A DNA stretch of 42,066 nt, from IMG/VR virus record IMGVR_UViG_3300020020_000574, positions 1-42,066 of that record; one strand, given 5' to 3'. A program made the position numbers and the translations under genes. This DNA comes from a virus. The notes beneath the pieces were generated by a model. It was not told where the DNA came from. It saw only the letters and a list, made by a program, of their open reading frames with translations, and ran no database searches. Positions 4,296 through 21,123 of this stretch are shown in pieces. Within the stretch, counting starts at the first letter, position 1; each line of letters opens with the position of its first letter.

Positions 4296-4342
4296 CTTTA
4301 ATCTCAACACCAACTATATCGAGACCGTCGCCACGACGCGAC
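4292..4342 (+). promoter_or_regulatory. Promoter cassette with 5' UTR hairpin
   Basis: TTGACT 4292-4297, 17-bp spacer, TATATC 4315-4320. The hairpin GTCGC-CACGAC-GCGAC at 4327-4342 begins about 7 nt after the -10, that is at or near +1. The TGA of the -35 is also the stop codon of the upstream gene. Confidence 0.85.
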
Positions 4343-4358
4343 TATGGAGATCAGGATC

Positions 4359-4631
4359 ATGGACACCACAGACCTCACCATCGTCATCCTCGCCACGATG
4401 ATCAATTTTCTCCCGGCGATAGTCGCTCTGTACCGCCGCCACCCGGCTCGCCTGGCCATCTTTATCGGTTGCCTGGTCGCCGCCACCGCCTTCCTCATCG
4501 CGGCAGACGATTACCCCCGGTTCGCCGCCCTGATTGGCCTGGTCTGGGTCGCCCTGCTTATCAAGTCATTCACGTCAACCACCACCGCGTCGCAGCCCGC
4601 CGCGCCCGCCGTCACCACATATCACATCTAA
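4359..4631 (+). CDS. Small membrane protein, three predicted helices
   Basis: A 90-residue hydrophobic protein. Three membrane segments are visible: LTIVILATMINFLPAIVAL (residues ~6-24), a second around LAIFIGCLVAATAFLIAA, and a third around FAALIGLVWVALLI. A short polar tail rich in Thr/Ala/Pro follows. The start is taken as ATG 4359 because GGAG lies nine bases upstream; ATG 4344 is in frame but has no ribosome site after the hairpin. First gene of the cassette at 4292, and probably its only gene before the next cassette. Function unknown. Confidence 0.72.
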   Translation: MDTTDLTIVILATMINFLPAIVALYRRHPARLAIFIGCLVAATAFLIAADDYPRFAALIGLVWVALLIKSFTSTTTASQPAAPAVTTYHI

Positions 4632-4650
4632 AAATAAATCCACGCCCCAC

Positions 4651-4701
4651 TTGACTTTATCCCAACTCCAATCTATATCGAGACCGTCGCCACGACGCGA
4701 C
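4651..4701 (+). promoter_or_regulatory. Promoter cassette with 5' UTR hairpin
   Basis: A/T tract AAAAATAAATC 10 bp upstream, TTGACT 4651-4656, 17-bp spacer, TATATC 4674-4679, hairpin GTCGC-CACGAC-GCGAC 4686-4701, AGGAG 4708-4712, ATG 4719. Confidence 0.88.
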
Positions 4702-4718
4702 TCACACAGGAGCCTACC

Positions 4719-5054
4719 ATGACCACCACCACCGAGCAAGCCGCCCTCATCGCCCAGGTGCGCGCCGGTTACCACACCCGCCTCGCCAACCTGCGCACCG
4801 CGTTACGCGGTCGCATCGAAGGCAACGTTTTCGTCTGGCCCGCCTACGGTCTGGGCGTCGCGTTCACCGACACAGAGTGCCGTACCGTCGCAGTCGAGGC
4901 CGCCACCATCGTCCCCGGCAACGTCTGCCGCAAGACATTCCGCAACGGCGGTAACGAGCCCGCCCAGTTCATGCCGCGCCGCGACGCGCTGGAAGCAGCC
5001 CTGGCCACCACCCAGGCCGCCCTGGCCGAATTCGAGCGCGCCATCAAGCTGTAA
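4719..5054 (+). CDS. Hypothetical protein, 111 aa
   Basis: A soluble alpha/beta protein. Residues 1-30 are helical (TEQAALIAQVRAGYHTRLAN); a central beta-rich part (NVFVWPAYGLGVAFTDTECR ...) has two Cys; and the last 25 residues form a helix (DALEAALATTQAALAEFERA). The start is fixed by AGGAG six bases upstream of ATG 4719. It is the sole gene of its cassette, since a new cassette follows 20 bp after the stop, whose TAA runs directly into the next A/T tract. No family recognised. Confidence 0.75.
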   Translation: MTTTTEQAALIAQVRAGYHTRLANLRTALRGRIEGNVFVWPAYGLGVAFTDTECRTVAVEAATIVPGNVCRKTFRNGGNEPAQFMPRRDALEAALATTQAALAEFERAIKL

Positions 5055-5074
5055 AAATAAATCGCGCGGGCCAC

Positions 5075-5125
5075 TTGACTTTCCAGTCAGGTGGCCCTAT
5101 CTCTAGACCGTCGCCACGACGCGAC
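5075..5125 (+). promoter_or_regulatory. Promoter cassette with 5' UTR hairpin
   Basis: A/T tract AAAAATAAATC, TTGACT 5075-5080, 17-bp spacer, TATCTC 5098-5103, hairpin GTCGC-CACGAC-GCGAC 5110-5125. The hairpin is identical to those at 4327 and 4686, although the spacer is not. Confidence 0.87.
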
Positions 5126-5144
5126 TCACACAAGGACCAAGATC

Positions 5145-5402
5145 ATGACCACCGAACCCCTTTTCGATCTGTACTCTGTTCCGGCCACCACCAGCGTCGA
5201 AACCCACGGTACATTCATGCTGCGCGCCCGTCTCTCCACGATCATCGCGTTCTGCGACAGCATCGACGCTCTGCGCCGCGTGCGCGCCGAGCTCAACAGC
5301 GGCAAGGAAGTCGCCCTGCTCTACCACAACGGGCGCGGGCGCTGGGCTGGCACGGTCCACGCTATCCGCCCGGCGCTCGCCCCTCTGGGCACGGAGGTGT
5401 AA
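5145..5402 (+). CDS. Hypothetical protein, 85 aa
   Basis: Start ATG 5145, with AAGGA upstream; an in-frame ATG at 5091 lies inside the promoter and is rejected. The protein is a compact alpha/beta fold: beta strands near THGTFMLRARLSTIIAF, a helix IDALRRVRAELNSG, then KEVALLYHNGRGRWAGTVHAI. It heads a three- to four-gene operon with the next gene one base away. Function unknown. Confidence 0.72.
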   Translation: MTTEPLFDLYSVPATTSVETHGTFMLRARLSTIIAFCDSIDALRRVRAELNSGKEVALLYHNGRGRWAGTVHAIRPALAPLGTEV

Positions 5403-5403
5403 C

Positions 5404-5658
5404 GTGATCACCAGCTATCGCGCGGCCTCATTCGCCTGGAACCCCTCCACGTTCCTCTTCACAGCGGAAGCCTCCAGCCTGGGCGCGGCCGCAGGGGCGC
5501 ATGACCGGTTTGACCTGGTCAGTCACACAGGCCGCCGCGCCATGTTTGTTCTCACCAAAACCGACCTGGACGCCAGCCACGAAGACATATACGGCTGGCA
5601 CTTCCGATGCGTCACACCCGACCTCACCCACCTCACCGCCCTCATCATCAACGACTAG
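5404..5658 (+). CDS. Hypothetical protein, 84 aa
   Basis: Begins with GTG at 5404, one base after the preceding stop, so it depends on coupled translation. The protein has the feel of a small beta sandwich: FLFTAEASSLG, RFDLVSHTGRRAMFVLTKTD and WHFRCVTPD. There is no signal sequence or membrane segment. It is the second gene of the operon started at 5075. No family recognised. Confidence 0.68.
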   Translation: MITSYRAASFAWNPSTFLFTAEASSLGAAAGAHDRFDLVSHTGRRAMFVLTKTDLDASHEDIYGWHFRCVTPDLTHLTALIIND

Positions 5659-5667
5659 GAGCCTGCC

Positions 5668-6012
5668 ATGATTCAGGATCACGAGCCGCGTATCGTCAGC
5701 GGCATACGCGGCCAGCCCTTTACCCGGCGGTTCGAGAGCCAGGCTGAACAGGACCAGTGGATTCTCAAGGAGGGGGTTTATTTCATCCGCATCACCGAAA
5801 CCCGCCGCGCCGAGGGCCCAGCCACGTTCATCTTGGACCATTATAACTTTGGCCTGCGCCGCGTCGTGGCCACGCTCGAAGAGGCGCAGTTACTCTGCAT
5901 CCGCTCAGGTTTCGACGCGACGGTTTTCCGCAACTCAGGCAGCAGCGACACCCCCATTTCTGGCAGTATCGTCGCCCGCTACAACTCCATCGGTGGCTGG
6001 AGCCTGGTGTGA
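5668..6012 (+). CDS. Hypothetical protein, 114 aa
   Basis: Preceded by AGGAG eight bases before ATG 5668. It is mainly beta, with strands at RIVSGIRGQPFTRRF, GVYFIRITETRR, ATFILDHYNFGLRRVVA and SGSIVARYNSIGGWSLV, and one helix (TLEEAQLLCIRSG). The Tyr/Asn-rich ending is unusual. It is the third gene of the 5075 operon. No family assigned. Confidence 0.72.
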   Translation: MIQDHEPRIVSGIRGQPFTRRFESQAEQDQWILKEGVYFIRITETRRAEGPATFILDHYNFGLRRVVATLEEAQLLCIRSGFDATVFRNSGSSDTPISGSIVARYNSIGGWSLV

Positions 6013-6098
6013 TGCAGCACGACCACCACGTTCGCCTTGGCATCAATGGGCCGCCCCCTCTGGGGCTGGCTTCCAGCTGCATAGGGACTGCAAAATAA
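6012..6098 (+). CDS. Possible small ORF, 28 aa
   Basis: ATG at 6012 overlaps the preceding stop (TGATG), and the frame ends with the TAA of the A/T tract before the next promoter. The peptide is MQHDHHVRLGINGPPPLGLA followed by SSCIGTAK. Coupling geometry matches other genes here, but the length is too short for composition to decide; it may instead be an untranslated tail. A GCCCC-TCT-GGGGC stem-loop lies within it. Confidence 0.35.
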   Translation: MQHDHHVRLGINGPPPLGLASSCIGTAK

Positions 6099-6112
6099 TT
6101 TCGCCAGCCCAC

Positions 6113-6164
6113 TTGACTTATCAGACAACCATCCCTATATCTAGTTCTGCGGCGATCAAGCCGC
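6113..6164 (+). promoter_or_regulatory. Promoter cassette with 5' UTR hairpin
   Basis: A/T tract CAAAATAATTTCG, TTGACT 6113-6118, 17-bp spacer, TATATC 6136-6141, hairpin GCGGC-GATCAA-GCCGC 6149-6164. The stem is the strand-swapped version of the GCCGC/GCGGC stems elsewhere. Confidence 0.88.
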
Positions 6165-6181
6165 TATAACAGGAGACTACG

Positions 6182-6529
6182 ATGACCAAGACCCAAGCCA
6201 ACACGATCCTCACCCAGATGACCGAGGCCATGATGGCGGTTAACCGCCAGAACGGTATCGCGTGTATGCCGTTGTCGGCCTATACCACCTGCGCGAACAC
6301 CTTCGAGATTCTCACGAAGGATGTGGAGCGCCCCGCCGCAATCTGGGACGGCCGCACCCTGCGCTCAGAGACGGTTGTTCTGGACCCCGCCGCCTACGCC
6401 GCGATGGTCAAGCTGGGCGGCGAGCAGAAGGCCATCAAGCTGATGATCCGCGCCATGATGAACATCACCGGCAAGACCTGGCGCGAAGTGCGCGATATCG
6501 TCGAGGCCCAGGTTCGCGCGGCGGCGTAA
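6182..6529 (+). CDS. Hypothetical protein, 115 aa
   Basis: ATG 6182 follows AGGAG by seven bases. Mostly helical and Met-rich: NTILTQMTEAMMAVNRQNG at the N-terminus, a middle with RPAAIWDGRTLRSETVVLD, then helices AAMVKLGGEQKAIKLMIRA and WREVRDIVEAQVRAAA. No catalytic motif seen. Sole gene of its cassette; the stop TAA is the start of the next A/T tract. Function unknown. Confidence 0.75.
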   Translation: MTKTQANTILTQMTEAMMAVNRQNGIACMPLSAYTTCANTFEILTKDVERPAAIWDGRTLRSETVVLDPAAYAAMVKLGGEQKAIKLMIRAMMNITGKTWREVRDIVEAQVRAAA

Positions 6530-6547
6530 ATAAAGTCAAGCGCCCAC

Positions 6548-6583
6548 TTGACTTTACCCAAGCCAGCCCCTATATTGGGGGCT
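6548..6583 (+). promoter_or_regulatory. Orphan promoter with palindromic -10
   Basis: TTGACT 6548-6553, 17-bp spacer, TATATT 6571-6576. The -10 lies in the loop of a perfect inverted repeat AGCCCC-TATATTG-GGGGCT (6565-6583). No coding region follows before the next cassette, which begins about 75 bp downstream. Confidence 0.75.
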
Positions 6584-6640
6584 GAGCCTGGGTATATCCC
6601 CGAGGGACCACGGCAGGGCTGCGCGTTTTCCCACCCCAAA
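6584..6640 (+). ncRNA. Candidate short non-coding transcript
   Basis: Transcription from the promoter at 6548 would start near 6583 and enter about 60 bases with no start codon: small foldable motifs GGG-TATAT-CCC and CCCCGAGGG, a C/G-rich middle, then GTTTTC before the next A/T tract. It may be a small RNA or merely a read-through leader of the amidoligase operon. Expression data are needed to tell which. Confidence 0.3.
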
Positions 6641-6658
6641 ATAATTTCGCAGCCCCAC

Positions 6659-6723
6659 TTGACTTTACCAGATCACACGTTTATATCTACGCCTAGTTGA
6701 GAGACACCGCCGCCAAGTGCGGC
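6659..6723 (+). promoter_or_regulatory. Promoter cassette of the amidoligase operon
   Basis: A/T tract CCAAAATAATTTCG, TTGACT 6659-6664, 17-bp spacer, TATATC 6682-6687, hairpin GCCGC-CAAGT-GCGGC 6709-6723, AGGAG, ATG 6741. Confidence 0.88.
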
Positions 6724-6740
6724 TAATTCAGGAGCCTCTA

Positions 6741-7742
6741 ATGTCCGAACTTCGCAGCCTCCAGGCCGAATGGAACGCCTTAGTGCCAGTCGCCCACAGC
6801 CTGGGTATCTATAGCGGCGTGCGCATCCTGCGCTCCACGCATGAGAACACGGGCATCGGTCGCCGCCGCGTCGCAGAGTTGCGCGCCCGCATTGAGGCGC
6901 GCCAGCCCACCGCCACCGCCCCTTTCGTCGCGCCCGGCGCGCAGGGCGACACCTTCGGCGTTGAGATCGAAGTCATCATGCCGAGCGGCCTGTCGCACTA
7001 CGGTCTGGCCCAGGCGATCACCGCCGCTGGCGTCGCCTGTGAGGCGCAGCGTTACAACCACCAGCTGATCACCACCTGGAAGGTTGTGCAGGACGGTAGC
7101 CTTGGCAGCCACATCACGGGCGCCGAAGTCGTGTCCCCCATCCTGACCGGCGAGGCGGGTTTCGCCACGATGGCGAAAGTTATGGACGCGATGACCGCCG
7201 CTGGGTGCAAGATCACAAAGCGCTGCGGCTTTCACGTCCACGTTGGCGCGCGTCGGGAGAACGTCCATTTTTTCCGCAGCCTGGCCCGCATCTATCGCAA
7301 GTTCGACGCGGCGATCAACTCTGTTCTGGCGCCGTCGCGCACGTCCAACGATTTCTGCCACGCTCACATCATCAACGAGACGCGGCTGGAGGCGGCCACC
7401 TCAATCGATGAGGTCACCCGCGCGGTTGGCCAGATGCCTGGCCGCGACTACATCCGCTCCAGCTACCGCTACCGCAAGCTGAATTTCTGCAGCTTCTTTC
7501 AGCACGGTACCGTTGAGTTCCGCCAGCATCAGGGCTCAACCGATGCGCGCAAGGCGGCCTACTGGGTGAGGTTCTGCCTGGCGATGGTCGCCGCCGCGCG
7601 GCGCAACCCAGACCTCAGCCTGTATAACGATAGCCTGGACGCGCTGATGACGCTGACCGAATCACCGACCGATGCGCGAGCCTACTTCAATTCCCGCGTT
7701 GCGGTGTTCGCCGCGCGGGCCACCAGCAGGAGGACAGCATGA
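6741..7742 (+). CDS. Amidoligase-family (ATP-grasp-like) enzyme
   Basis: A 333-residue protein matching the Amidoligase_2 family, predicted ligases that join an amine to a carboxylate to form amide or peptide bonds using ATP. Visible motifs: FGVEIE at 72-77, WKVVQDGSL at 113-121, GAEVVSP at 127-133, CGFHVHVGA at 162-170, YRYRKLNF at 242-249 and GTVEFRQHQGS at 256-266. These are the Glu/His/Arg sites expected for ATP and metal binding. Residues 10-53 are an extra N-terminal helical module (EWNALVPVAHSLGI ... RVAELRARIEA) also found twice in the AT-hook protein at 25957. The start is ATG 6741 after AGGAG; an in-frame ATG at 6717 lies in the 5' hairpin. A small gene overlaps its stop, and two gamma-glutamylcyclotransferase-fold genes lie 2-4 kb downstream, an association known for this family. 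Substrate unknown. Confidence 0.88.
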   Translation: MSELRSLQAEWNALVPVAHSLGIYSGVRILRSTHENTGIGRRRVAELRARIEARQPTATAPFVAPGAQGDTFGVEIEVIMPSGLSHYGLAQAITAAGVACEAQRYNHQLITTWKVVQDGSLGSHITGAEVVSPILTGEAGFATMAKVMDAMTAAGCKITKRCGFHVHVGARRENVHFFRSLARIYRKFDAAINSVLAPSRTSNDFCHAHIINETRLEAATSIDEVTRAVGQMPGRDYIRSSYRYRKLNFCSFFQHGTVEFRQHQGSTDARKAAYWVRFCLAMVAAARRNPDLSLYNDSLDALMTLTESPTDARAYFNSRVAVFAARATSRRTA

Positions 7743-7969
7743 AGATCATGACCGCAGACGGCCACACCTACAGTGGCACCCCAGCGCAGATTGTTACCCA
7801 GCTCAACGCGGGCTCAATGGCTCACGCCGAGACAAGCGCGGCGTGGATGCAGGAGGCGGCAGACCGCGCCACGATGACCAGTGGCACCGATGTGCGCTTT
7901 GACACCGCGCTACATTTCCTCTATGACCTGTCCAAGGCGGGGCAGATCAAGATACTGGAGGATGCGTGA
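7739..7969 (+). CDS. Small protein coupled to amidoligase, 76 aa
   Basis: ATG 7739 overlaps the amidoligase stop (ATGA). The protein starts with a short beta hairpin (MTADGHTYSGTPAQIVTQL) and continues as helices (AETSAAWMQEAADRAT ... RFDTALHFLYDLSKAGQI). The pattern Y-x-G-T-P-x-Q-I-V, with a helix later ending in a short hydrophobic segment, is one I associate with small proteins encoded beside amidoligases and in rhizobial phages. It is therefore a candidate accessory or substrate of the ligase, but this is inference from position. Confidence 0.7.
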   Translation: MKIMTADGHTYSGTPAQIVTQLNAGSMAHAETSAAWMQEAADRATMTSGTDVRFDTALHFLYDLSKAGQIKILEDA

Positions 7970-8157
7970 TGAGTGCCACAGATTATACCCTGGACGTTGA
8001 CCTGCGGGTAAAGTTAGCCCACATCGATCAGATGTTAGCTGATCATGATCGTAAGCGCCAGGAGATCAGGCTGGCGCCTTGGCAGATTGGGCTATCTTTA
8101 ATGACCATGGGCGCGGCGTTCTTCGCGGCGGGTGCGGCGTTTGTCAAGCTGTGGTAA
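7969..8157 (+). CDS. Coiled-coil/membrane protein, 62 aa
   Basis: The start is placed at ATG 7969, overlapping the previous TGA; GTG 7966 is an alternative. The N-terminal 30 residues are charged and helical (KLAHIDQMLADHDRKRQEIR) and one membrane helix follows (IGLSLMTMGAAFFAAGAAFV) with a short tail. This topology and the RKRQEIRxAPWQ junction are typical of small phage proteins of unknown role. Third gene of the amidoligase operon. A holin-like role is possible but unsupported. Confidence 0.72.
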   Translation: MSATDYTLDVDLRVKLAHIDQMLADHDRKRQEIRLAPWQIGLSLMTMGAAFFAAGAAFVKLW

Positions 8158-8176
8158 AATAAATCCGCCGCCCCAC

Positions 8177-8230
8177 TTGACTTTAAGTCAGACAGCCCCT
8201 ATCTAGGGGTTGTCGCCGCCACGATGCGGC
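8177..8230 (+). promoter_or_regulatory. Promoter cassette with palindromic -10 and hairpin
   Basis: A/T tract TAAAATAAATC, TTGACT 8177-8182 (with TGACTT-TA-AGTCA symmetry), 17-bp spacer, TATCTA 8200-8205 inside the perfect palindrome CCCCTA-TC-TAGGGG (8196-8209), then hairpin GCCGC-CACGAT-GCGGC 8215-8230. Confidence 0.88.
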
Positions 8231-8245
8231 TAACTGGAGGATGAA

Positions 8246-8443
8246 ATGTTTGACGCGATGCGTGAAGAGTTGGAGATTGAGTATAACGCGCGGTTCGATT
8301 ACGTGCGTGAAGCTTTCGCCGGTATGGCTGAAGACCCGGCGACCCTGGCGGCTGAGGCGGCCGATTATGCCGCTGAGGCGGCTGCTGAGTGGACCGCTTT
8401 TATCGGCCCGCGCCTGCCGGTTGACGATGAAATCTGGTTTTGA
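8246..8443 (+). CDS. Small acidic protein, 65 aa
   Basis: ATG 8246, with GGAGG eight bases upstream. Strongly acidic and Ala-rich helical protein (REELEIEYNARFDYVREAF, then LAAEAADYAAEAAAEWTAFI), with few basic residues. Small acidic early phage proteins often act as inhibitors or DNA mimics, but nothing specific supports that here. First gene of the 8177 cassette. Confidence 0.68.
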   Translation: MFDAMREELEIEYNARFDYVREAFAGMAEDPATLAAEAADYAAEAAAEWTAFIGPRLPVDDEIWF

Positions 8444-8456
8444 AAGGCACCGCGTC

Positions 8457-8663
8457 ATGAAGATCGAACTCAAAGGCAACTCCAAGATTTACCGCGACCT
8501 GCTGGTCAAGGTAGGCGACGGCCCGGAGGAATGGGCTGAGGATGTTACCCTGCCGGTGTTACCGGAGCCGCAGGCGGCCGTGGTTGAGGCAATTCTCAGC
8601 GGCCAGTTCACCCTTACCGTCGCCGAAACCGGCACAGTGACCGTTGTGGTGGTATGCCCATGA
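8457..8663 (+). CDS. Hypothetical protein, 68 aa
   Basis: ATG 8457, preceded by AAGG at nine bases. Beta-rich: MKIELKGNSKIYRDLLVKVG, an acidic loop (GPEEWAEDV), and C-terminal strands FTLTVAETGTVTVVVV. It overlaps the next gene by ten bases. The frame is also open upstream, but that part is antisense-like shadow of the preceding gene. Function unknown. Confidence 0.65.
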   Translation: MKIELKGNSKIYRDLLVKVGDGPEEWAEDVTLPVLPEPQAAVVEAILSGQFTLTVAETGTVTVVVVCP

Positions 8664-8869
8664 TCCGCCGCCAGCCTTCCATGGAGGAAGTCTACCGGAC
8701 ACCCGCGCCGAAGGTCACGCTCACCCTGGACCTGGATGAGGCTCAGGCCGCTCTAGTGGCCATCGACCAGCACGAGGCCAGCTACGCGATTGACCGGCCT
8801 GGCTATGCCTCATCTGGCTACATGGCGCTTCGCCGCGCCCTGGCACACGCTATCGCGGCGGCAAAATAA
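8654..8869 (+). CDS. Hypothetical protein, 71 aa
   Basis: Starts ATG 8654 or ATG 8660; the latter overlaps the preceding stop as ATGA and is equally likely. The protein has a beta strand KVTLTLDLDEAQAALVAIDQ leading into a helix and a C-terminal helix YMALRRALAHAIAAAK. The LxLDxDEAxALxAxL pattern is common in small phage proteins that have no assigned role. The gene directly precedes an HNH-like endonuclease gene. Confidence 0.68.
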   Translation: MPMIRRQPSMEEVYRTPAPKVTLTLDLDEAQAALVAIDQHEASYAIDRPGYASSGYMALRRALAHAIAAAK

Positions 8870-8879
8870 GGATAGACAA

Positions 8880-9323
8880 ATGACGGCTGAGGAATTGCGC
8901 CGTTGGAAGGTACGCTACAACAACCACATGTTTGACGCCAGATATCGCGGTGTGCCATGGCGGTTTACCTTTGAACAGTGGATGGGTATTTGGATTGCGT
9001 CTGGTAACATGCACGAGCGCGGACCTAGGCTTGGTCAATACGTTATGGCGCGGTTCGGTGACAAGGGAGCCTATCGCGTAGGCAATGTGGAGATTATCCC
9101 AGCCTCAGACAATAATAGAGCCGCTCAACTGGGTAGGTTGCGCCCTGATCTAGCAGCGCGGAACAAGAGCCAACAACAGCGGCAGGCTATCTGCGCTAGC
9201 TGGAAGACCAGAGCGCCGCGTACCGGCTGGAAGCATTCTGAGGCGACCAAGGCGAAGATGAAGGTATCGGCTGCGCTATCCTGGAAGCGTGGTGATCGAA
9301 AAATAAGAGCGGACCCCACTTGA
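8880..9323 (+). CDS. HNH-like homing endonuclease (family copy 1)
   Basis: A 147-residue basic protein, one of three homologous proteins in the window (others at 18921 and 28325). The shared core is W-x-x-x-SG-x-M/W-x-x-RG ... Q-Y-V-M-A-R-F-G-D-K-G-x-Y-x-V-G-N-V-x-I-I ... N-N. This resembles the HNH-type site of small phage endonucleases with variant residues; no classic zinc ligands are present. The C-terminus HSEATKAKMKVSAALSWKR is a NUMOD3-like DNA-binding tail. Start ATG 8880, ten bases after the previous stop. The stop is the TGA inside the next TTGACT, so the gene occupies the interval immediately upstream of a promoter, just as the GIY-YIG gene does at 3184. Probably a selfish element; cleavage activity is inferred. 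Confidence 0.72.
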   Translation: MTAEELRRWKVRYNNHMFDARYRGVPWRFTFEQWMGIWIASGNMHERGPRLGQYVMARFGDKGAYRVGNVEIIPASDNNRAAQLGRLRPDLAARNKSQQQRQAICASWKTRAPRTGWKHSEATKAKMKVSAALSWKRGDRKIRADPT

Positions 9324-9377
9324 CTTTATCTTCAATCCGTCCTATATCTAGGACTGCAACCCGCCGCCACGAGCGGC
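9320..9377 (+). promoter_or_regulatory. Promoter cassette with palindromic -10 and hairpin
   Basis: A/T stretch GAAAAATAAG, TTGACT 9320-9325 (its TGA is the stop of the endonuclease gene), 17-bp spacer, TATATC 9343-9348 centred in the perfect palindrome GTCCTA-TATC-TAGGAC (9339-9354), hairpin GCCGC-CACGA-GCGGC 9363-9377. Confidence 0.88.
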
Positions 9378-9396
9378 CTATGTGAGGACGAATCAA

Positions 9397-10083
9397 ATGG
9401 CTTTGTACTGGAGTTATGGGAGTAATCTGGACCCGGTGCGGATGCGGCAGCGTTGCCCCTCTGCACGGATGGTCGGGCCGCTCTACTTCAACAACGCCAA
9501 GCTGGTCTTCCGCGCCGTGGCCGATGTGGTCACCTGCGAGGGAAGCCGGGTGCCCGGCGGCCTGTGGGAGATCGATGAGCGCGATGAGCGTGAGCTGGAC
9601 CGCTATGAGGGTGTTTCCAGCGGGCTGTACGCGCGCTGGCACGTCACCAAGAAGATCGATGGGCGCAAGCGCCGCATCCTCTTCTACAAGATGAATGAGG
9701 CTGGCATCATGCCGCCCAGCGCCCGGTATCTTGACACGATCATGTGCGGCTATCGCGCCTTCGGACTGGACATGTCCTACCTTGAGACCGCGCTGGCGGA
9801 GAGCCACGACGATAAGACCCGCACAGAGTATCTGGATTGGCGCTATGAGCGCGACCGGCCACGGCTGGCGCCGCGCGACCACGTCAAGCCGCGACACAAC
9901 CTTGAAGAGCGGATCAAGGAGGGCAAGCCAGCGACGCCCAAGCTGCCGTCCCGGCTGACCGTCCCGATGTACGGCGTGACCCACCTGATCAAGAAGAAGG
10001 AAAACGCCACAGACAAATTCATCCGCTACCTCGACCGGAAGAATAAGGGCAAGGGCTCCAAGCTGAGCCGGAAGGGCATGTGA
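9397..10083 (+). CDS. Gamma-glutamylcyclotransferase-fold protein
   Basis: A 228-residue protein with the gamma-glutamylcyclotransferase (GGCT) fold at residues 1-140. YGSNL at 7-11 is the substrate-binding loop, and DRYEGV at 68-73 carries the catalytic Glu71 that cyclises gamma-glutamyl amides to 5-oxoproline. Residues ~150-228 form a basic tail (KKKENATDKFIRYLDRKNKG) not found in simple GGCTs. The start is ATG 9397, after GAGGA; a GTG at 9382 is in frame but too close to the hairpin. First gene of its cassette, followed by a small coiled-coil gene. With the amidoligase upstream and a second GGCT-like gene downstream, it may remove or edit gamma-linked amide modifications (inference from known amidoligase-GGCT associations). 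Confidence 0.85.
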   Translation: MALYWSYGSNLDPVRMRQRCPSARMVGPLYFNNAKLVFRAVADVVTCEGSRVPGGLWEIDERDERELDRYEGVSSGLYARWHVTKKIDGRKRRILFYKMNEAGIMPPSARYLDTIMCGYRAFGLDMSYLETALAESHDDKTRTEYLDWRYERDRPRLAPRDHVKPRHNLEERIKEGKPATPKLPSRLTVPMYGVTHLIKKKENATDKFIRYLDRKNKGKGSKLSRKGM

Positions 10084-10084
10084 C

Positions 10085-10282
10085 ATGGCCAAGAAGCACA
10101 ACGGCGATTTGATAAGAGTATTCGGCCAGCTGCTAGACGAAAAGCTGGCGCCGCTAAAACGCGACATCGTGGAAACCAAAATTATCGTGCGTGGATTGGG
10201 AGAAGCGGTTGGGCGCATCGAAACCCGGCTGAGAGTTGTCGAAGCAATCCTGGGCATCGACCCCGATAGACCGAAGCACTGA
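10085..10282 (+). CDS. Small coiled-coil protein, 65 aa
   Basis: ATG 10085, one base after the GGCT stop. Basic N-terminus (AKKHNGDLIRVF) then a continuous amphipathic helix (LLDEKLAPLKRDIVETKIIV ... AVGRIETRLRVVEAIL). It resembles the coiled-coil protein at 4050 in size and character, without clear sequence identity. Function unknown. Confidence 0.68.
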   Translation: MAKKHNGDLIRVFGQLLDEKLAPLKRDIVETKIIVRGLGEAVGRIETRLRVVEAILGIDPDRPKH

Positions 10283-10290
10283 AATACCAC

Positions 10291-10362
10291 TTGACTTTAA
10301 CTCCAACCAAGCTTATATCTAGCTTGAGGCTAGCGCCTCAATCACCCGCCGCCACGCGCGGC
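10291..10362 (+). promoter_or_regulatory. Promoter cassette with two 5' hairpins
   Basis: TTGACT 10291-10296, 17-bp spacer, TATATC 10314-10319 within AAGCT-TATATCT-AGCTT (10309-10325). Two stems follow: TTGAGGC-TAGC-GCCTCAA (10324-10341) and the usual GCCGC-CACGC-GCGGC (10348-10362). The upstream A/T tract is reduced to GAAATACC. Confidence 0.86.
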
Positions 10363-10380
10363 TCACACAGGAGAACGACA

Positions 10381-10773
10381 ATGCCACTTGTTTGGGTTTA
10401 CGGTACGCTAAAGAGCGGACACCGCAACCACTGCGTCCTCGGCGCCAAGTCAGTCAACCATGGCCCGGCGGTGTTTACCTTCCAGGCCAGCGCCATGTAT
10501 GACGTAGGCTTCCCCATCATCATGAAGGGCCAGTCCAGGATACAGGTCCAGGGCGAACTCTACCACGTGGACGGCGCGACATTCCGTCGCCTGGACGTGT
10601 TGGAGAGCAACGGCCACATGTACAAGCGGCGCCGCAAGCGTCTGCCGGACGGGCGCCAGGCCTGGGTGTACATTGGAATGGATAAGTTCTGGGCACCGCA
10701 AAGGCTCGTTCGGCCCGTCCAGCCTGATAGCGATGGCGTGATTCGCTGGAACCCCACAGAATGGAGAGCGTAA
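10381..10773 (+). CDS. AIG2/GGCT-like protein
   Basis: A 130-residue single-domain protein of the AIG2/GGCT family: VYGTLKSGHRN at 6-16 is the nucleotide-like substrate loop (compare YGTLxxG), and LDVLE with Glu75 is in the position of the catalytic acid. The C-terminus (VYIGMDKFWAPQRLVRPVQP) completes the barrel. It is only distantly related to the GGCT at 9397 and is more compact. Members convert gamma-glutamylamines to 5-oxoproline or handle related amides. ATG 10381 follows GGAG; the gene overlaps the next by one base. Second GGCT-fold protein in the neighbourhood of the amidoligase. Confidence 0.82.
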   Translation: MPLVWVYGTLKSGHRNHCVLGAKSVNHGPAVFTFQASAMYDVGFPIIMKGQSRIQVQGELYHVDGATFRRLDVLESNGHMYKRRRKRLPDGRQAWVYIGMDKFWAPQRLVRPVQPDSDGVIRWNPTEWRA

Positions 10774-11021
10774 TGAACACGGAACAGGCACGCGCGGCGG
10801 CGAAGGAGCTTCTCACATTCGCCAAGCGCGCAGAGGAACTTATGGCTGCTCTGGATAGCGGCTCAGTCCCATGCGACTGTTGCGGCACGATTCGATACAA
10901 CAACTGGGCACAGAAACAGCTGGCCGACAAGCTAGAGGGCATCGCGGAGCGGCTTGAGACCGCAGGCGATACCCTGAACCGCCGGGCGGATGATCCGGCA
11001 TTCCTCGGTGGGGGCGGATGA
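10773..11021 (+). CDS. Small protein with CxxC motif, 82 aa
   Basis: ATG 10773 overlaps the upstream stop (TAATG), with GGAG ten bases before it. Helical protein (RAAAKELLTFAKRAEELMAA) with a CDCCG motif at residues ~35-39 and a second helix (QLADKLEGIAERLETAGDTL). A single CxxC is too little for a full zinc site unless it dimerises. Function unknown. Confidence 0.7.
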   Translation: MNTEQARAAAKELLTFAKRAEELMAALDSGSVPCDCCGTIRYNNWAQKQLADKLEGIAERLETAGDTLNRRADDPAFLGGGG

Positions 11022-11034
11022 GTAAAATAAACTC

Positions 11035-11110
11035 TTGACTTTATCGTCAACCACGCCTATCTAGCGTCTATTGACCCCTGCGGTGCCGCCCGCCCCCAGA
11101 CACGGTCAAT
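11035..11110 (+). promoter_or_regulatory. Promoter cassette with extended 5' stem-loop
   Basis: A/T tract GTAAAATAAAC, TTGACT 11035-11040 forming TTGAC-TTTATC-GTCAA, 17-bp spacer, TATCTA 11058-11063 within ACGC-CTATCTA-GCGT. The leader has an outer stem ATTGACC/GGTCAAT (11070-11076 and 11104-11110) enclosing GCGG-TG-CCGC (11080-11089). Confidence 0.83.
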
Positions 11111-11140
11111 TCAAATCAACGCGGGCAAGGAGTTTCTACC

Positions 11141-11416
11141 ATGTTCGTTACCCTTACGATGGTGATCGCCGAGCGTGATCGCAGCTACGATGATTCGGAT
11201 GAAGGCGAAGACGATGGCATCGTGCCGATGGTCCCGTCTGAGCCCACCAGCCCGACTGTGGTCAACACAGACCTGATCCGCAACTTCTATCCGCGCAAGA
11301 AGCGCCGCGACGGCACCCGCCCGGTGGGCACCCGCATCACGTTCGTCAACGGCAGCGGGATGGCAGTGACCGACACGTTTGAGCAAGTCACCGCCAAGAT
11401 CACCGCGACGGCCTAA
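11141..11416 (+). CDS. FlbD-like small protein, 91 aa
   Basis: ATG 11141 follows AAGGAG. The order V-T-L-T-M-V ... V-N-T-D-L-I-R-x-F-Y-P ... G-T-R-I-T-F-x-N-G-S-G-x-A-V-T-D-T-F-E-x-V is reminiscent of FlbD-type proteins, which are about 60 residues and regulate flagellar genes in some bacteria. Here an acidic loop (DDSDEGEDDG) is inserted near the N-terminus. The similarity is pattern level only; it may just share the fold. Sole gene of its cassette; a non-coding region with a tRNA gene follows. Confidence 0.68.
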   Translation: MFVTLTMVIAERDRSYDDSDEGEDDGIVPMVPSEPTSPTVVNTDLIRNFYPRKKRRDGTRPVGTRITFVNGSGMAVTDTFEQVTAKITATA

Positions 11417-11604
11417 CCCAACCAGCCCAGCCGGAGGTGGCGCTAATAACACCGGCAGTTCGAGGGATGGGGGCACGTCTCCGCCTTCCAAGCCGGGAGT
11501 GTGGCTGTCCGCTGTTGGGTAGCAGCTGTGCTCTTTGGTCAAAAACACCGTCCTGATCGAACCGGGGGGAGACACCGTCGTCCCAGACAACTCCCCCCGT
11601 CTTC
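11417..11604 (+). other. Non-coding, structured spacer before tRNA
   Basis: No gene is seen. Two stems are evident: GCCGG/CCGGC around 11434-11464, and a perfect 9-bp hairpin CGGGGGGAG (11563-11571) with CTCCCCCCG (11591-11599) and a 19-base loop. The second ends five bases before the tRNA gene and might act as a processing or pausing signal. No poly-T run follows it. Confidence 0.5.
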
Positions 11605-11684: not shown

Positions 11685-11704
11685 AAATAATTTCGCCGCT
11701 CCAC

Positions 11705-11761
11705 TTGACTTTAAGTCAAGGCGCGTTTATATCTCCTGTATGCAACGCGGCCATGCGCCGC
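11705..11761 (+). promoter_or_regulatory. Promoter cassette with 5' UTR hairpin
   Basis: A/T tract CCAAAATAATTTCG abuts the tRNA CCA end. TTGACT 11705-11710 lies in the near-perfect palindrome CTTGACTT-T-AAGTCAAG; 17-bp spacer, TATATC 11728-11733, hairpin GCGGC-CATGC-GCCGC 11747-11761, AGGAG, ATG 11778. Confidence 0.88.
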
Positions 11762-12770: not shown

Positions 12771-12830
12771 TTGACTTTATCGTCAAGTGCCTTTATATCT
12801 CTGATTGAGAACCACGCGGTCACGCACCGC
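12771..12830 (+). promoter_or_regulatory. Promoter cassette with 5' UTR hairpin
   Basis: A/T tract GAAAATAAATCG, TTGACT 12771-12776 with CTTGAC-TTTATC-GTCAAG symmetry, 17-bp spacer, TATATC 12794-12799, hairpin GCGGT-CACGC-ACCGC 12816-12830 (a fourth stem sequence, still perfectly paired). Confidence 0.88.
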
Positions 12831-13119: not shown

Positions 13120-13120
13120 G

Positions 13121-13377: not shown

Positions 13378-13431
13378 TTGACTTAACGATCAACCCAACC
13401 TATATCCTACCGGTAGCGGCGATGATGCCGC
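13378..13431 (+). promoter_or_regulatory. Promoter cassette with CTACCGGTAG and hairpin
   Basis: TTGACT 13378-13383, 17-bp spacer, TATATC 13401-13406, immediately followed by the palindrome CTACCGGTAG (13407-13416), then hairpin GCGGC-GATGAT-GCCGC (13416-13431). No clear A/T tract upstream. Confidence 0.84.
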
Positions 13432-13675: not shown

Positions 13676-13996
13676 ATGAAGAAGTCCATCCTACTTGCGA
13701 CCGCCGCCTTGTTTGCCGTTACCGGCGTCCAGGCCAGCCCGCTGCGCTCTGCGGTGATCGCCCACTACGAGAGCAACAGCCGCGTGCGCTCGGCGGTTTA
13801 TCGCGACGCCTGCAAGGGCGGCGACATGATGAAGGAAGAGCGCACCGCGCGGGCGCATCTGGGCGAGCGAGACGCCCAGCGCTATGACCGGGTGAGCCGT
13901 GCACTGGGCAAGGCGTACACTGACCCGGCGATCCAGCCCACAGACGCGGTGCTGGAGCGCATCCACGCCGATTTCTGTAAGGCGGTGGCGCCGTGA
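13676..13996 (+). CDS. Secreted/periplasmic protein, 106 aa
   Basis: ATG 13676 follows GGAG. A signal peptide is evident: MKKSILLATAALFAVTGVQA, then cleavage before SPLR. The mature part is helical and basic with two Cys (DACKGG ... DFCKAV) that could form a disulfide in the periplasm. Function unknown. An upstream in-frame ATG at 13640 lies at the end of the previous gene and is not used. Confidence 0.72.
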   Translation: MKKSILLATAALFAVTGVQASPLRSAVIAHYESNSRVRSAVYRDACKGGDMMKEERTARAHLGERDAQRYDRVSRALGKAYTDPAIQPTDAVLERIHADFCKAVAP

Positions 13997-14181
13997 CAGG
14001 GGTGGTTATCGTCTACCCCGAACATCGCACCCTGAGCGACGATCAGGTAGAAGTCATGTACCTGGATGCAGTTGTCAACGACAAGATTGCTCTTGGACGG
14101 CAGACCGCCCGGACAGTAGCCGATATGGCTCTGGCGCTAGAGGATGCGGGTATTATCTCAATCGGAAAGGAACGACCGTGA
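13993..14181 (+). CDS. Hypothetical protein, 62 aa
   Basis: GTG 13993 overlaps the preceding stop (GTGA). Small alpha/beta protein: TGVVIVYPEHRTLSDDQVEV, then helix NDKIALGRQTARTVADMALA and a short end (EDAGIISIG). No family recognised; its stop overlaps the next start. Confidence 0.66.
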   Translation: MTGVVIVYPEHRTLSDDQVEVMYLDAVVNDKIALGRQTARTVADMALALEDAGIISIGKERP

Positions 14182-14552
14182 ACGCGAACTGGTTCAACAC
14201 GAATCTATCAGCCACCCCGCCTGGGTGGATACTGGTAATGGCGGGTGGGTTCATCCTGTGGTGGCCCATCGGGCTGGCAGTCCTGGCCTACCTGTTATGG
14301 AGTGGTTCAATGGGACGAGTTAACGGCCAGTGGTGGGAACGCGCCAAGGCGACGGCCTGGCCGTTTACCGGCGGCGGCACCGGCAACGCGGCGTTCGACG
14401 CTCATCGCAAGGCGACGCTGGACCGGCTGGAGGCTGAGCGGCGGAAGCTTGAAGAGGAACAGCGCGACTTCGCCGTGTTCCTTGACAAGCTGCGCCACGC
14501 CAAGGACCAGAGCGACTTCGACGACTTCCTCAAGGCACGGGGCGGGGCTTGA
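14178..14552 (+). CDS. DUF2852-like membrane protein, 124 aa
   Basis: GTG 14178 overlaps the previous stop. One or two membrane helices (ILVMAGGFILWWPIGLAVLA) are followed by the conserved cytoplasmic stretch GNAAFDAHRKATLDRLEAER and EQRDFAVFLDKLRHAKDQSD. This is the arrangement of DUF2852, a family I know from Alphaproteobacteria (rhizobia especially). In hosts its function is unknown. In a phage it looks like an acquired or co-evolving host-type membrane protein. The stop codon is the TGA in the following TTGACT, so gene end and promoter overlap. Confidence 0.82.
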   Translation: MNANWFNTNLSATPPGWILVMAGGFILWWPIGLAVLAYLLWSGSMGRVNGQWWERAKATAWPFTGGGTGNAAFDAHRKATLDRLEAERRKLEEEQRDFAVFLDKLRHAKDQSDFDDFLKARGGA

Positions 14553-14600
14553 CTTAACGATCAACATCATCTACGGTCTACCGGTAGGGACAAGGGTCCC
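14549..14600 (+). promoter_or_regulatory. Weak promoter cassette with CTACCGGTAG
   Basis: TTGACT 14549-14554 (its TGA ends the upstream gene), 17-bp spacer, then TACGGT (14572-14577) as a poor -10, followed by CTACCGGTAG (14578-14587) and the hairpin GGGAC-AAGG-GTCCC (14587-14600). The same spacer words (TTGACTTAACGATCAAC) occur at 13378. Confidence 0.65.
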
Positions 14601-14617
14601 TCAATATGGAGACTACC

Positions 14618-14833
14618 ATGATGAAGTTAATCGTCGCCACAGCACTGTTCGCTGTGTTGGCCGTCTCAAGCGTGAGGGCGGCTGAAAAGGCCATAGCAAT
14701 GGGCGAATGCTCGACGCTGTGGCGCACGTACAAGGCCAGTCCGGAGTACGTGGACCCGGGTAAGGGCAACCGCTCTGCGGCCTGGCAGTCATTCTACAAG
14801 CAGCGCTGCGGTAAGGACCGCGACGCGAACTAA
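14618..14833 (+). CDS. Small secreted protein, 71 aa
   Basis: The start is taken as ATG 14618 (ATGATG), with GGAG seven bases upstream; ATG 14606 contains that ribosome site and is rejected. A signal peptide is visible (MMKLIVATALFAVLAVSSVRA, cleavage before AEKA). The mature part is ~50 residues with two Cys (GECSTLW ... KQRCGKD) and W/Y residues, probably a disulfide-bonded periplasmic peptide. Function unknown; similar in type to the secreted proteins at 13676 and 29907. Confidence 0.72.
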   Translation: MMKLIVATALFAVLAVSSVRAAEKAIAMGECSTLWRTYKASPEYVDPGKGNRSAAWQSFYKQRCGKDRDAN

Positions 14834-14835
14834 AA

Positions 14836-14949
14836 CGCTGCGGATAACAGGGTGGGGCCGCAAGCCCCCAAGTCACCGCAGCGGGGCTGGTGTAGTCACG
14901 GGCATCCTAGGTTAGGCCCGTGGCGTATGCGGACTCCGCGTCGCCAGCC
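14836..14949 (+). ncRNA. Candidate structured RNA (two domains)
   Basis: No coding frame fits. Domain 1: an 8-bp stem CGCTGCGG (14836-14843) with CCGCAGCG (14876-14883), enclosing GGGGC-CGCAA-GCCCC (14854-14868). Domain 2, starting two bases on: a stem GGCTGG (14885-14890) with CCAGCC (14944-14949), enclosing two perfect or near-perfect hairpins, CACGGGC/GCCCGTG (14897-14922, loop containing CCTAGG) and ATGCGG-ACT-CCGCGT (14927-14941, one G-U pair). This three-way junction is not a tRNA. It lies between a secreted-protein gene and the next promoter cassette. The strand is assumed from its neighbours; the fold is equally possible on the other strand. Confidence 0.6.
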
Positions 14950-14990
14950 TACAGGGGGGCGGGTTGGTTAAATAAATCAGCCCGCCCCTC

Positions 14991-15024
14991 TTGACTTTAT
15001 CCCCATGTGCGGCTATCTCTAGCC
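14991..15024 (+). promoter_or_regulatory. Promoter cassette with palindromic -10
   Basis: A/T tract TTAAATAAATCAG, TTGACT 14991-14996, 17-bp spacer, TATCTC 15014-15019 inside GGCTA-TCTC-TAGCC (15011-15024). The GCCGC-type hairpin is missing; a short leader with AGGAAAGGAA leads to a GTG start. Confidence 0.83.
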
Positions 15025-15045
15025 CTAGACAGGAAAGGAACCCAC

Positions 15046-15477
15046 GTGACCAAGCAAGTCAAGATTGAGCTTCCCCCCGGCGTGATGCCGGAAGACCTCA
15101 AGTACCCCACCGATTATCTGGACTGCGACCGCAACGCGGGCGACCACGGCCAGCTGACCTTCTACAACACGGTAGGTTTCGGCTGGTGCATTGCGACGCT
15201 GCTGATCAATCGGTCGCGGCGTGGTACCAGCGACCGCACGTATGCGGTGCGGGTTAGCGACGGCGCTGGGGTGCGCATTGGTGTCGGCCCGCACGTCAAG
15301 TCCACGGTCACGGTTATCCTGCGCAAGTCGCGGATAGCGGCGCTGCAGAAGTACATCGACCTCTATAATGCGGGTGCGATCAAGGCCAACACGACGCGCG
15401 ACCGGATATCCAGCCGCCGGGCGGAAGGCGTCGAGCGCCGCGCCCGGGGCGAATACAGCTGGCGCTGGGATGTGTGA
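15046..15477 (+). CDS. Hypothetical protein, 143 aa
   Basis: GTG 15046 with AGGAAAGGAA at six bases. Beta-rich core (QLTFYNTVGFGWCIATLLIN ... RTYAVRVSDGAGVRIGVGPH ... STVTVILRKSR), then a helix (IAALQKYIDLYNAGAIKAN) and a basic C-terminal tail (SSRRAEGVERRARGEYSW). It may be a small nucleic-acid-binding protein, but no family is recognised. Heads a long run of overlapping genes reaching to about 21,050 with no further cassette. Confidence 0.74.
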   Translation: MTKQVKIELPPGVMPEDLKYPTDYLDCDRNAGDHGQLTFYNTVGFGWCIATLLINRSRRGTSDRTYAVRVSDGAGVRIGVGPHVKSTVTVILRKSRIAALQKYIDLYNAGAIKANTTRDRISSRRAEGVERRARGEYSWRWDV

Positions 15478-19337: not shown

Positions 19338-20328
19338 ACTCATGGACGCTGGTCCAATGGGGTATCACTCCCAGCTTATGGCAGCGACGATTGATCAGGT
19401 TCGCCTTGCTCAGAAATTCGTCCTGGACCCGCCGTTCGCGGCGGCGGCGGATGCGCTGTCGGCCGACTATGGGACGCTGGTCAAAGCATTCCCTTTTTGC
19501 CGGTTGCCGTTCGCTCACACGTGGATCGAAGTCGCGCAGGGCGACCGGCCCCAGTTCATGGCAGCGGGGGTGCACGCCCCTATTTTCCAGTCGCGCCCGC
19601 GCCGGGTAGGCTTCCTCTGTACTGCGACGCGGTCAGACTTATCGGCCTGGAAATCAGAACTGTTCTGGGTGATGCCGGATAAGGGCTGCAATGCGGCGGC
19701 CATCGCCATGAATTTTGATATGACGCAGGGTAGCGGGATCGTTTACGATTCCGCTTACAAGCCGTACCGGATAGGGCAGGAGCACCAGGAGTTCTTCCCT
19801 GAATCGAAGATGAAGAGTCATCCCGGCTGGGACGAGGCGACGCCCGTCGTACGGCAGGCCCTGCTAGAACATACTGGGACAACGTTGCCGGATTATGGTA
19901 CACCGATGTTCCCAGAAGACATAACGCAGATACCGAGGCCCAAGCTGGACAAGATACTCTCTATGATCTATGACCTCGCGCGCAGCGACTGGGCAGGAGA
20001 GGTTTCCTTCCTGCTGGCCGTAATCGGCCTGCTCAACGCGCGCAACGTGGTCGAGCGTGAGCGGGTTGACGTCTCGCGCAAGAGCCACGCAAGGATCAAG
20101 CGCGGGCGCCCGGCGTTCTTCGAGCATCACCTGCTGAAGATACAGCGCAGGCAGATCACGCGGGCGGCGCGGGCACCTGGAACAGACCAGCAGCACGGTA
20201 AGATTAGGCGGCATGTCTGCGCTGGTCACTGGAAAGTGCGCAAGACGGGTATCTTCTTCTGGCATCCATTCTGGAGGGGCGACCCGGCGCGCGGTACCGT
20301 GACCAAGGATTATGAGGTTGTGCGGTGA
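19324..20328 (+). CDS. Conserved phage-type protein, 334 aa (paralogue B)
   Basis: ATG 19324 follows AAGGAGG, embedded in the end of the endonuclease gene. It is a divergent paralogue of the protein at 15653 (see the shared blocks listed there): QKFVLDPPFAAAADALSADY, FAHTWIEVAQG, GFLCTATRSDLSAWKSELFW, then a helix-rich middle and RRHVCAGHWKVRKTGIFFWH near the C-terminus, ending GTVTKDYEVVR. Unknown function; the pair probably arose by duplication within the phage lineage. Confidence 0.76.
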   Translation: MLCDELMDAGPMGYHSQLMAATIDQVRLAQKFVLDPPFAAAADALSADYGTLVKAFPFCRLPFAHTWIEVAQGDRPQFMAAGVHAPIFQSRPRRVGFLCTATRSDLSAWKSELFWVMPDKGCNAAAIAMNFDMTQGSGIVYDSAYKPYRIGQEHQEFFPESKMKSHPGWDEATPVVRQALLEHTGTTLPDYGTPMFPEDITQIPRPKLDKILSMIYDLARSDWAGEVSFLLAVIGLLNARNVVERERVDVSRKSHARIKRGRPAFFEHHLLKIQRRQITRAARAPGTDQQHGKIRRHVCAGHWKVRKTGIFFWHPFWRGDPARGTVTKDYEVVR

Positions 20329-20498
20329 AACGCTACCTACTCAAGATTGTTTCGAACGCCCACCTCAACGCAGAGGGGGAATGGATCGAGGTCCAGGTTG
20401 ACCAGCCGCTCGCGTTTGGCTGGATCAATATTGATAAGATGTTCCAGCCCTACATCCCTGAAGGCTTCCATCTGGTCGCCGTGCGCAGAAAGGATTAA
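20325..20498 (+). CDS. Hypothetical protein, 57 aa
   Basis: GTG 20325 overlaps the previous stop. Small alpha/beta protein: KRYLLKIVSNAHLNAEGEWI, then EVQVDQPLAFGWINIDKMFQ and HLVAVRRKD. No family recognised. Confidence 0.64.
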   Translation: MKRYLLKIVSNAHLNAEGEWIEVQVDQPLAFGWINIDKMFQPYIPEGFHLVAVRRKD

Positions 20499-20501
20499 CC
20501 A

Positions 20502-20753
20502 ATGCAGTTCCTGGTAAAGAAGCATCTTGTCCGTCCCAACACGATGGTGGTGGGGGTTTATAATGATACCGGCGACCTCATCGCGACGATCAGCCCGCAC
20601 GATCAGGGGCTCCACATTGTATCGCGGCATATGACCGGACAGTTACCGACGATAGGGGTTGGAGTTCTGGTTGTCCTCGACTCTGAGGTATGCGACCCAC
20701 CCGTGCCGGTGCCCCCGGCTATCCTGAAAAAATATAGTCCAGACCACACTTAA
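20502..20753 (+). CDS. Hypothetical protein, 83 aa
   Basis: ATG 20502, with AAAGGA upstream. All-beta character (QFLVKKHLVRPNTMVVGVYN, DLIATISPHDQGLHIVSRHM, TIGVGVLVVLDSEV) and a Pro-rich end (DPPVPVPPAIL). Function unknown. Confidence 0.66.
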   Translation: MQFLVKKHLVRPNTMVVGVYNDTGDLIATISPHDQGLHIVSRHMTGQLPTIGVGVLVVLDSEVCDPPVPVPPAILKKYSPDHT

Positions 20754-20769
20754 CCAAAGGAACCTACCA

Positions 20770-21051
20770 ATGAGAACGACCACGATGATTGTTGCCCTTC
20801 TGTTGTCCGGCGCGGCCTACGCTCAGCCGATCAGCAGCACCCACGGCGTCACGGCCAATTCAGCCGACAAGGCTCCGGTGCCCGGCGTGTCAGATGCCAC
20901 CGTCAAGTCTGGCCAGCCTTTCCGCACAACGGACGGCGATGAGTGCCGTGAGGTTATGGTTACTGGCGTGCGCCAGTGGCTATGTACCTCGATGCAGGCG
21001 GCGAATGCCAAGCCGGTCTATACCTTCCCACGCAGTGGGTGGGACCGATAA
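20770..21051 (+). CDS. Secreted protein, 93 aa
   Basis: ATG 20770, with AAAGGAAC upstream. Signal peptide MRTTTMIVALLLSGAAYA with likely cleavage before QPIS. The mature chain has two Cys (GDECREVM ... QWLCTSM) about 15 residues apart, suited to a disulfide. Periplasmic location is inferred; function unknown. Last gene of the long operon begun at 14991. Confidence 0.72.
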   Translation: MRTTTMIVALLLSGAAYAQPISSTHGVTANSADKAPVPGVSDATVKSGQPFRTTDGDECREVMVTGVRQWLCTSMQAANAKPVYTFPRSGWDR

Positions 21052-21065
21052 ATCTCCTGGCCCCC

Positions 21066-21123
21066 TTGACTTTATAGTCAAGAGGGGCTATTCTAGGGAT
21101 AGTTGAACGCCGCCACGCGCGGC
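21066..21123 (+). promoter_or_regulatory. Promoter cassette with 5' UTR hairpin
   Basis: TTGACT 21066-21071 lies in the inverted repeat CTTGACT-TTAT-AGTCAAG (21065-21082); 17-bp spacer, TATTCT 21089-21094, hairpin GCCGC-CACGC-GCGGC 21109-21123. No A/T tract upstream, only TAAATC from the previous stop. Confidence 0.86.

Follow-up and report, generated by a model that had tools for sequence, protein, structure and literature searches.

Covarying hairpins just upstream of the Shine-Dalgarno sequence in twelve phage leaders are probably RNA-level elements

Why should a phage place a small hairpin ahead of the first gene of one short transcription unit after another, and is it the DNA or the RNA form of that hairpin that matters? 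The question is raised by the IMG/VR virus record IMGVR_UViG_3300020020_000574, a 42-kb stretch (42,066 nucleotides, GC content about 59%) that was analysed as a whole and is referred to below as the window. It carries 12 such hairpins between promoter and start codon. All 12 had been listed in a first-pass annotation of this DNA and were confirmed to the exact base; each consists, as described there, of a fully paired 5-bp stem, perfectly Watson-Crick in 12 of 12 cases, closing a loop of 5–6 nt. The arms of these stems change in step and their position follows the Shine-Dalgarno (SD) sequence, and we conclude that the hairpin is quite probably an RNA-level element under selection.

The hairpins were sought from the promoters. 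Nineteen promoters were defined by their −35 box and spacing, blind to hairpins, and the leaders downstream were then inspected. A 5-bp stem with a 5–6-nt loop lies no more than 45 nt from the −10 box at 12 of the 19, whereas 4.6% of random 45-nt windows contain such a structure (binomial p = 4e-12). Dinucleotide-shuffled versions of the leaders contained 0.56 hairpins on average and 4 at most (n = 2000). No decayed versions were seen among the promoter leaders, and therefore the picking of only perfect stems does not explain the result. The stems are GC-rich, and the isolated hairpins have predicted energies of −5.7 to −9.4 kcal/mol.

All 12 are on the plus strand and fall into a few stem types. 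GTCGC-CACGAC-GCGAC occurs three times, at 4327..4342 (promoter with −35 box at 4292, start codon at 4359), 4686..4701 (promoter 4651, start 4719) and 5110..5125 (promoter 5075, start 5145). The GCCGC/GCGGC stem is found with the loop CAAGT at 6709..6723 (promoter 6659, start 6741), CACGAT at 8215..8230 (promoter 8177, start 8246), CACGA at 9363..9377 (promoter 9320, start 9397) and CACGC at both 10348..10362 (promoter 10291, start 10381) and 21109..21123 (promoter 21066, GTG start at 21139). The arms are exchanged in GCGGC-GATCAA-GCCGC at 6149..6164 (promoter 6113, start 6182), GCGGC-CATGC-GCCGC at 11747..11761 (promoter 11705, start 11778) and GCGGC-GATGAT-GCCGC at 13416..13431 (promoter 13378, start 13452), and a further variant, GCGGT-CACGC-ACCGC, lies at 12816..12830 (promoter 12771, start 12845). 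The loop had been annotated as usually CACGN; this holds, as CACGN(N), for eight of the 12 copies, while the other four differ.

The 12 copies are paralogues of a single genome, and it is on these that the covariation rests. Their alignment contains 55 Watson-Crick paired cells out of 55 and no broken one. Stem pairs 1 and 4 are invariant (G-C), and double, compensatory changes are seen in three of the five pairs, pair 2 being C-G or U-A, pair 3 C-G or G-C and pair 5 C-G or U-A. The covariation score was 0.407, against 0.151 ± 0.042 in shuffles, and none of 500 shuffles scored as high. Sliding the partner strand by one to three columns destroyed the pairing, and the RNAalifold consensus fold was the same structure, at −9.7 kcal/mol. 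With three of the five pairs doubly changed and no shuffle equalling the score, the initial claim that the paired changes imply selection on RNA structure is well supported.

The bases around the stem show how far mere descent could account for this similarity. Mean pairwise identity is 0.78 in the stem and 0.74 at loop positions 1–4, compared with 0.36 in the spacer between the −35 and −10 boxes and 0.26 in the bases just 5′ of the hairpin; neutral promoter positions are thus near saturation between cassettes. Because these neighbours are randomised, a loop identity of 0.74 indicates conservation beyond mere descent. Position 2 of the loop is A in 12 of 12 copies and position 4 is G in 11 of 12, and the remaining loop positions vary. 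Template switching is a known mechanism in short quasi-palindromes and, by copying one arm onto the other, could produce matched changes without selection, and the repeats here are tiny and close together. However, homogenisation of this kind does not fit a set in which none of the 12 stems has a mismatch and the loop has been preserved, yet the neutral neighbours are randomised, in which the place before the SD sequence is fixed, and in which a non-homologous stem takes that place at 14587; we regard it as very improbable.

The same features bear on the possibility that the inverted repeat works as DNA, as an operator or cruciform below the promoter that is bound by a dimeric DNA-binding protein. 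Perfect palindromic arms without G-U pairs and a close association with promoters would suit such a site, and for the inverted repeats near gene starts of cluster K mycobacteriophages (extended start-associated sequences, ESAS) a role as DNA sites has been preferred (PMC3203893). Instead, a dimer that reads half-sites should not tolerate the matched arm changes (GCCGC/GCGGC, GCGGC/GCCGC, GTCGC/GCGAC), the distance to the promoter ranges from 6 to 28 nt, and a separate palindrome at the −35 box, discussed below, is a better operator candidate. The spacing of the arms varies by 1 bp as the loop alternates between 5 and 6 nt, and the asymmetric loop is present in one orientation only, always on the mRNA strand; RNA suits these two features better than a DNA operator, which we consider improbable.

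Within the leader, the hairpin sits a few nucleotides 5′ of the SD sequence. In each of the 12 leaders, 14–20 nt separate its 3′ base from the start codon (mean 16.9, standard deviation 1.8 nt), whereas its distance from the −10 box runs from 6 to 28 nt (standard deviation 6.8 nt) and is significantly more variable (Levene p = 0.007). The first-pass annotation had given 6–24 nt for this distance, which the hairpin at 10348, 28 nt away, exceeds, and had taken the 5′ end as the landmark; the spacing is instead fixed to the SD sequence and start codon. Such a hairpin is found at 13 of 19 promoter-proximal SD-bearing starts and at 1 of 65 other SD-bearing starts (p = 6e-10), and this contrast, together with the fixed spacing, ties it to the first gene of the transcript and its ribosome-binding site. 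A thirteenth leader has a hairpin of unrelated sequence, GGGAC-AAGG-GTCCC, at 14587..14600 on the plus strand (promoter-like sequence at 14549, start at 14618), which has a 4-nt loop and a sixth pair, A14586-T14601, and is placed as in the other 12 leaders.

A stem could also protect the message from its 5′ end by blocking RppH and RNase E, prolonging mRNA life without the help of any protein, as the earlier annotation had suggested. Messages of Escherichia coli are stabilised by 5′ secondary structure, and both enzymes need a single-stranded 5′ end (PMC3997798); the stems here are GC-rich, 5 bp long and confined to promoter-proximal leaders. The transcript starts, which are predictions and not mapped, place the onset of the stem at +1 to +4 in six of the 12 leaders, in accord with this suggestion, but at +8 to +23 in the other six, where a single-stranded 5′ end would be left, so that the stem lies right at the transcript start in only half of the cases. 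Moreover, it is the distance to the SD sequence, not that to the start site, that is conserved, protection does not require a conserved loop, the 10291 leader has a second hairpin (TTGAGGC-TAGC-GCCTCAA) closer to the 5′ end than the one at 10348, and the leaders of promoters 14991, 24775, 25875 and 29458 have no hairpin. The leader at 11035 has a larger, different fold. We consider stabilisation of the 5′ end quite unlikely as the explanation. The other role that had been put forward, a binding site for a phage protein, agrees better with the two loop positions conserved amid randomised neutral ones, although no binder was found.

A fixed place ahead of the SD sequence might equally suit an element that acts in cis, either by docking at the platform of the 30S subunit or as a spacer or standby structure beside the SD sequence, such that the fold alone matters. 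The start-codon spacing of 14–20 nt, the covariation of the stem without conservation of its sequence, and the non-homologous hairpin in the same place at 14587 would all be expected of it. This was followed up in a ribosome-binding-site insulation test, in which the five stem pairs were penalised and no base was altered. The predicted openness of the SD sequence went from 0.60 to 0.56 and that of the AUG hardly moved; by this prediction the stem neither masks nor exposes the SD sequence, and an action on it in cis alone is not expected. The independence of predicted SD and AUG accessibility from the hairpin, the conservation of loop positions 2 and 4, and the absence of the hairpin from 64 of the 65 other starts of the phage all argue against the fold acting by itself, which we hold to be unlikely.

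The lambda boxB element of the nut site also has a 5-bp stem and a 5-nt loop and lies in early transcripts, and the hairpins here resemble it in these dimensions and in their nearness to transcript starts. Unlike lambda boxB, they have no GNRA-like loop, their position is fixed to the SD sequence rather than to the transcript start, there is one per short transcription unit, and a boxA-like sequence was found in no leader with up to two mismatches. Terminator-like sites are no more numerous between 4000 and 15200 than in shuffles. An antitermination site at each transcript start is thus extremely improbable. Nor do the hairpins resemble intrinsic terminators: the stem is followed by the SD sequence and not by a T run, and a terminator scan of 4000–15200 listed none of the 11 hairpins located there.

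We tentatively favour, with less than even confidence, a trans-acting RNA-binding factor that reads the hairpin and sets the translation of the whole set. This reading is preferred because it brings together the covarying stem, the two conserved loop bases, the single orientation and the fixed placement at the edge of the ribosome. The stem would present a loop of the form S-A-H-G-N(N) to the factor. As the 3′ foot of the hairpin stands 14–20 nt ahead of the start codon, a bound factor would come up against the 30S subunit at its upstream edge. Once bound, the factor may raise or lower the translation, and hence the stability, of all these mRNAs jointly, and the roughly 12 transcription units would then form one post-transcriptional regulon. 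The factor is probably a phage-encoded RNA-binding protein and less likely a host protein or a small RNA; an antisense partner was sought in the phage, where complementary 8–9-mers are scattered and yielded no candidate RNA. That a single phage RNA-binding protein switches an entire block of small accessory genes through about 12 leaders, while a repressor uses the separate promoter operator, is possible but doubtful. The 12 natural variants have a practical value as well, as they separate stem pairing from loop identity.

Several observations weigh against selection on an RNA element read by such a factor. The independent compensatory events are few, involving at least three pairs and perhaps 3–4 events in total. 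G-U pairs are absent from all 55 cells, which is mild evidence for a constraint at the level of DNA or of stability. The loop is not invariant, as the variants GATCAA, GATGAT, CAAGT and CATGC attest. In the predicted full leaders of the hairpins at 4327 and 21109, competing folds reduce the stem probability to 0.06 and 0.36, respectively. An alternative triloop register of the GTCGC trio was considered and set aside, being dominant in only one of 12 contexts tried. The different stem and loop in the same place at 14587 favours structure alone. The best match of the hairpin covariance model outside the leaders (2837–2874, GCGGC-CACGC-GCCGC, 22.5 bits) is within an open reading frame at 2360–3187, and is probably a chance occurrence in coding sequence. 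Among 22 loci of relatives the model gave no match with E < 0.6. Finally, no binding protein was found, and most proteins of the hairpin region had no match in PHROGs.

The promoters themselves share the consensus CCACTTGACTTTA-N-CTATATC with a 17-nt spacer. TTGAC is present in 19 of 19, and nearly all have the 17-nt spacer to a CTATAT-like −10 box. The sigma-70 consensus of Sinorhizobium is CTTGAC-N17-CTATAT (PMC2873474), and the cassette promoters conform to this alphaproteobacterial pattern; because they equal that consensus, the host is probably an alphaproteobacterium. The example at 4288..4320 on the plus strand reads CCACTTGACTTTA...CTATATC with a spacer of 17 and its −35 box at 4292. 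Promoters of the same type, sharing the motif, lie at 4651, 5075, 6113, 6548, 6659, 8177, 9320, 10291 and 11035, and further at 11705, 12771, 13378, 14549, 14991, 21066, 24775, 25875 and 29458. Between 4292 and 21081, the palindrome TTGACTTTANNGTCAA overlaps the −35 box of most of them. It has 13 matches over the two strands together against 0.03 expected, and its GTCAA half is enriched in the spacers, with none of 5000 shuffles equally high; judged from the sequence, it is probably a repressor operator common to these promoters. An AAAATAAWT-like stretch some 10–25 bases upstream of most −35 boxes, often overlapping the preceding stop codon, may belong to the cassette as something like an UP element. 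Within 6548–6655, the promoter at 6548 is complete but has no open reading frame directly behind it, the next promoter being at 6659; the stretch between the two promoters has a strong predicted fold and could be a small RNA.

No second case of the cassette was found in relatives, IMG/VR, GTDB genomes or INPHARED. The promoter pattern with the correct spacer gave only single chance matches in IMG/VR and 85k GTDB genomes, the few promoter-pattern loci with some hairpin nearby had no similarity to window proteins, and nucleotide searches of INPHARED returned no match. Two other probes were rejected: AAATAA combined with the −35 pattern matched unrelated low-GC phages, and the hairpin plus SD pattern gave 21 single matches in GC-rich sequence that lacked the promoter. 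By protein, the relatives are a few short metagenomic contigs, L044–L047, with DNA polymerases 62–83% identical to that of the window, together with L074–L076 (helicase, 46–48%), L054 (amidoligase, 45%) and L241; the hairpin was found in none of them. In a scan for promoters and leader hairpins, the L241 orthologue of gene 11778 has a promoter of the same class and a short leader without a hairpin. Because this orthologue keeps the promoter class without the hairpin, the latter seems to have been added in the lineage of this phage, or else its close relatives are unsampled. L074, whose helicase is 48% identical, has its own promoter cassette at 1342, 3170 and 5606 on the plus strand and at 20098 on the minus strand; three of these four copies contain AAAATAGTTGTTGACTT, and the leaders are short and lack a hairpin. 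Repeated cassettes AAATAATTCTCCCACCCACTTGACTTTATTGGGAGAA, with an inverted repeat around the −35 box, were also seen in the unrelated low-GC phages L064, L065, L067, L072 and L073.

Among the proteins encoded by the window are a DNA polymerase of family A, a helicase and one that resembles thymidylate synthase. Isolates, among them phage 023Pt_psg01 and Pelagibacter phage HTVC023P, have polymerases at most about 38% identical to that of the window. Between 4.2 and 14.6 kb lies a block of successive short transcription units with small genes, mostly without known function. Two of its genes are gamma-glutamyl cyclotransferase-like (9397–10083 and 10381–10773), each with its own hairpin leader, and near both is an amidoligase-like gene (6741–7742), which also follows a hairpin. 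At the gathering score, Rfam matched only two tRNAs and a Proteo-phage-1 RNA (RF03044; 23482–23567, 43.5 bits, the gathering score being 42), and nothing at the hairpins.

Several phages are known to carry repeated motifs at their gene starts, and whether these act as DNA or RNA is unsettled. Like the 5′ stabilising stem-loops of the ompA/papA type, the hairpins described here belong to the leader that precedes the first gene of its transcript; those stems must be at the very 5′ end, whereas half of the phage hairpins are not, as judged by predicted starts, and the loop here is conserved. In cluster EG Microbacterium phages an inverted repeat (GATCAACCNNGGTTGATC; PMC7302621) likewise recurs near gene starts, but its arm sequence is fixed and it is likely a DNA operator, while the arms of the phage hairpin vary in step. 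The closest analogues are the start-associated sequence (SAS) and ESAS of cluster K mycobacteriophages and cluster EF Microbacterium phages, a multi-copy short inverted-repeat element before many small genes that is linked to the ribosome-binding site (PMC3203893, PMC7302621). The present element shares this arrangement, with 12 copies immediately upstream of starts and the 3′ end 14–20 nt before the start codon, although the 13-bp SAS itself, GGGATAGGAGCCC, had no match in the window with up to two mismatches (1.4 expected). ESAS has 17-bp imperfect arms of conserved sequence, and its discoverers considered that departures between the arms lend no support to RNA pairing, preferring a DNA-binding role (PMC3203893). 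Here, instead, the 5-bp arms always match perfectly and vary in sequence, and their departures preserve pairing; the test by which ESAS was set aside as RNA, that its arms do not co-vary, thus gives the opposite answer in this phage.

By way of working, the most similar system is the gene 43 operator of phages T4 and RB69, a hairpin of 16–18 nt upstream of the SD sequence with conserved loop bases, which is bound by a repressing phage protein (PMC3014915). The phage hairpins likewise lie just upstream of the SD sequence, and such a mode of action is putative for them. The T4 operator serves one autoregulated gene and lies about 40 nt from its start codon, unlike the present hairpins, which precede about 12 unrelated genes, have another loop and stem, and have no identified binder. 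If a phage protein does read these hairpins, they would constitute a rare example of a multi-gene translational regulon outside that of T4 RegA.

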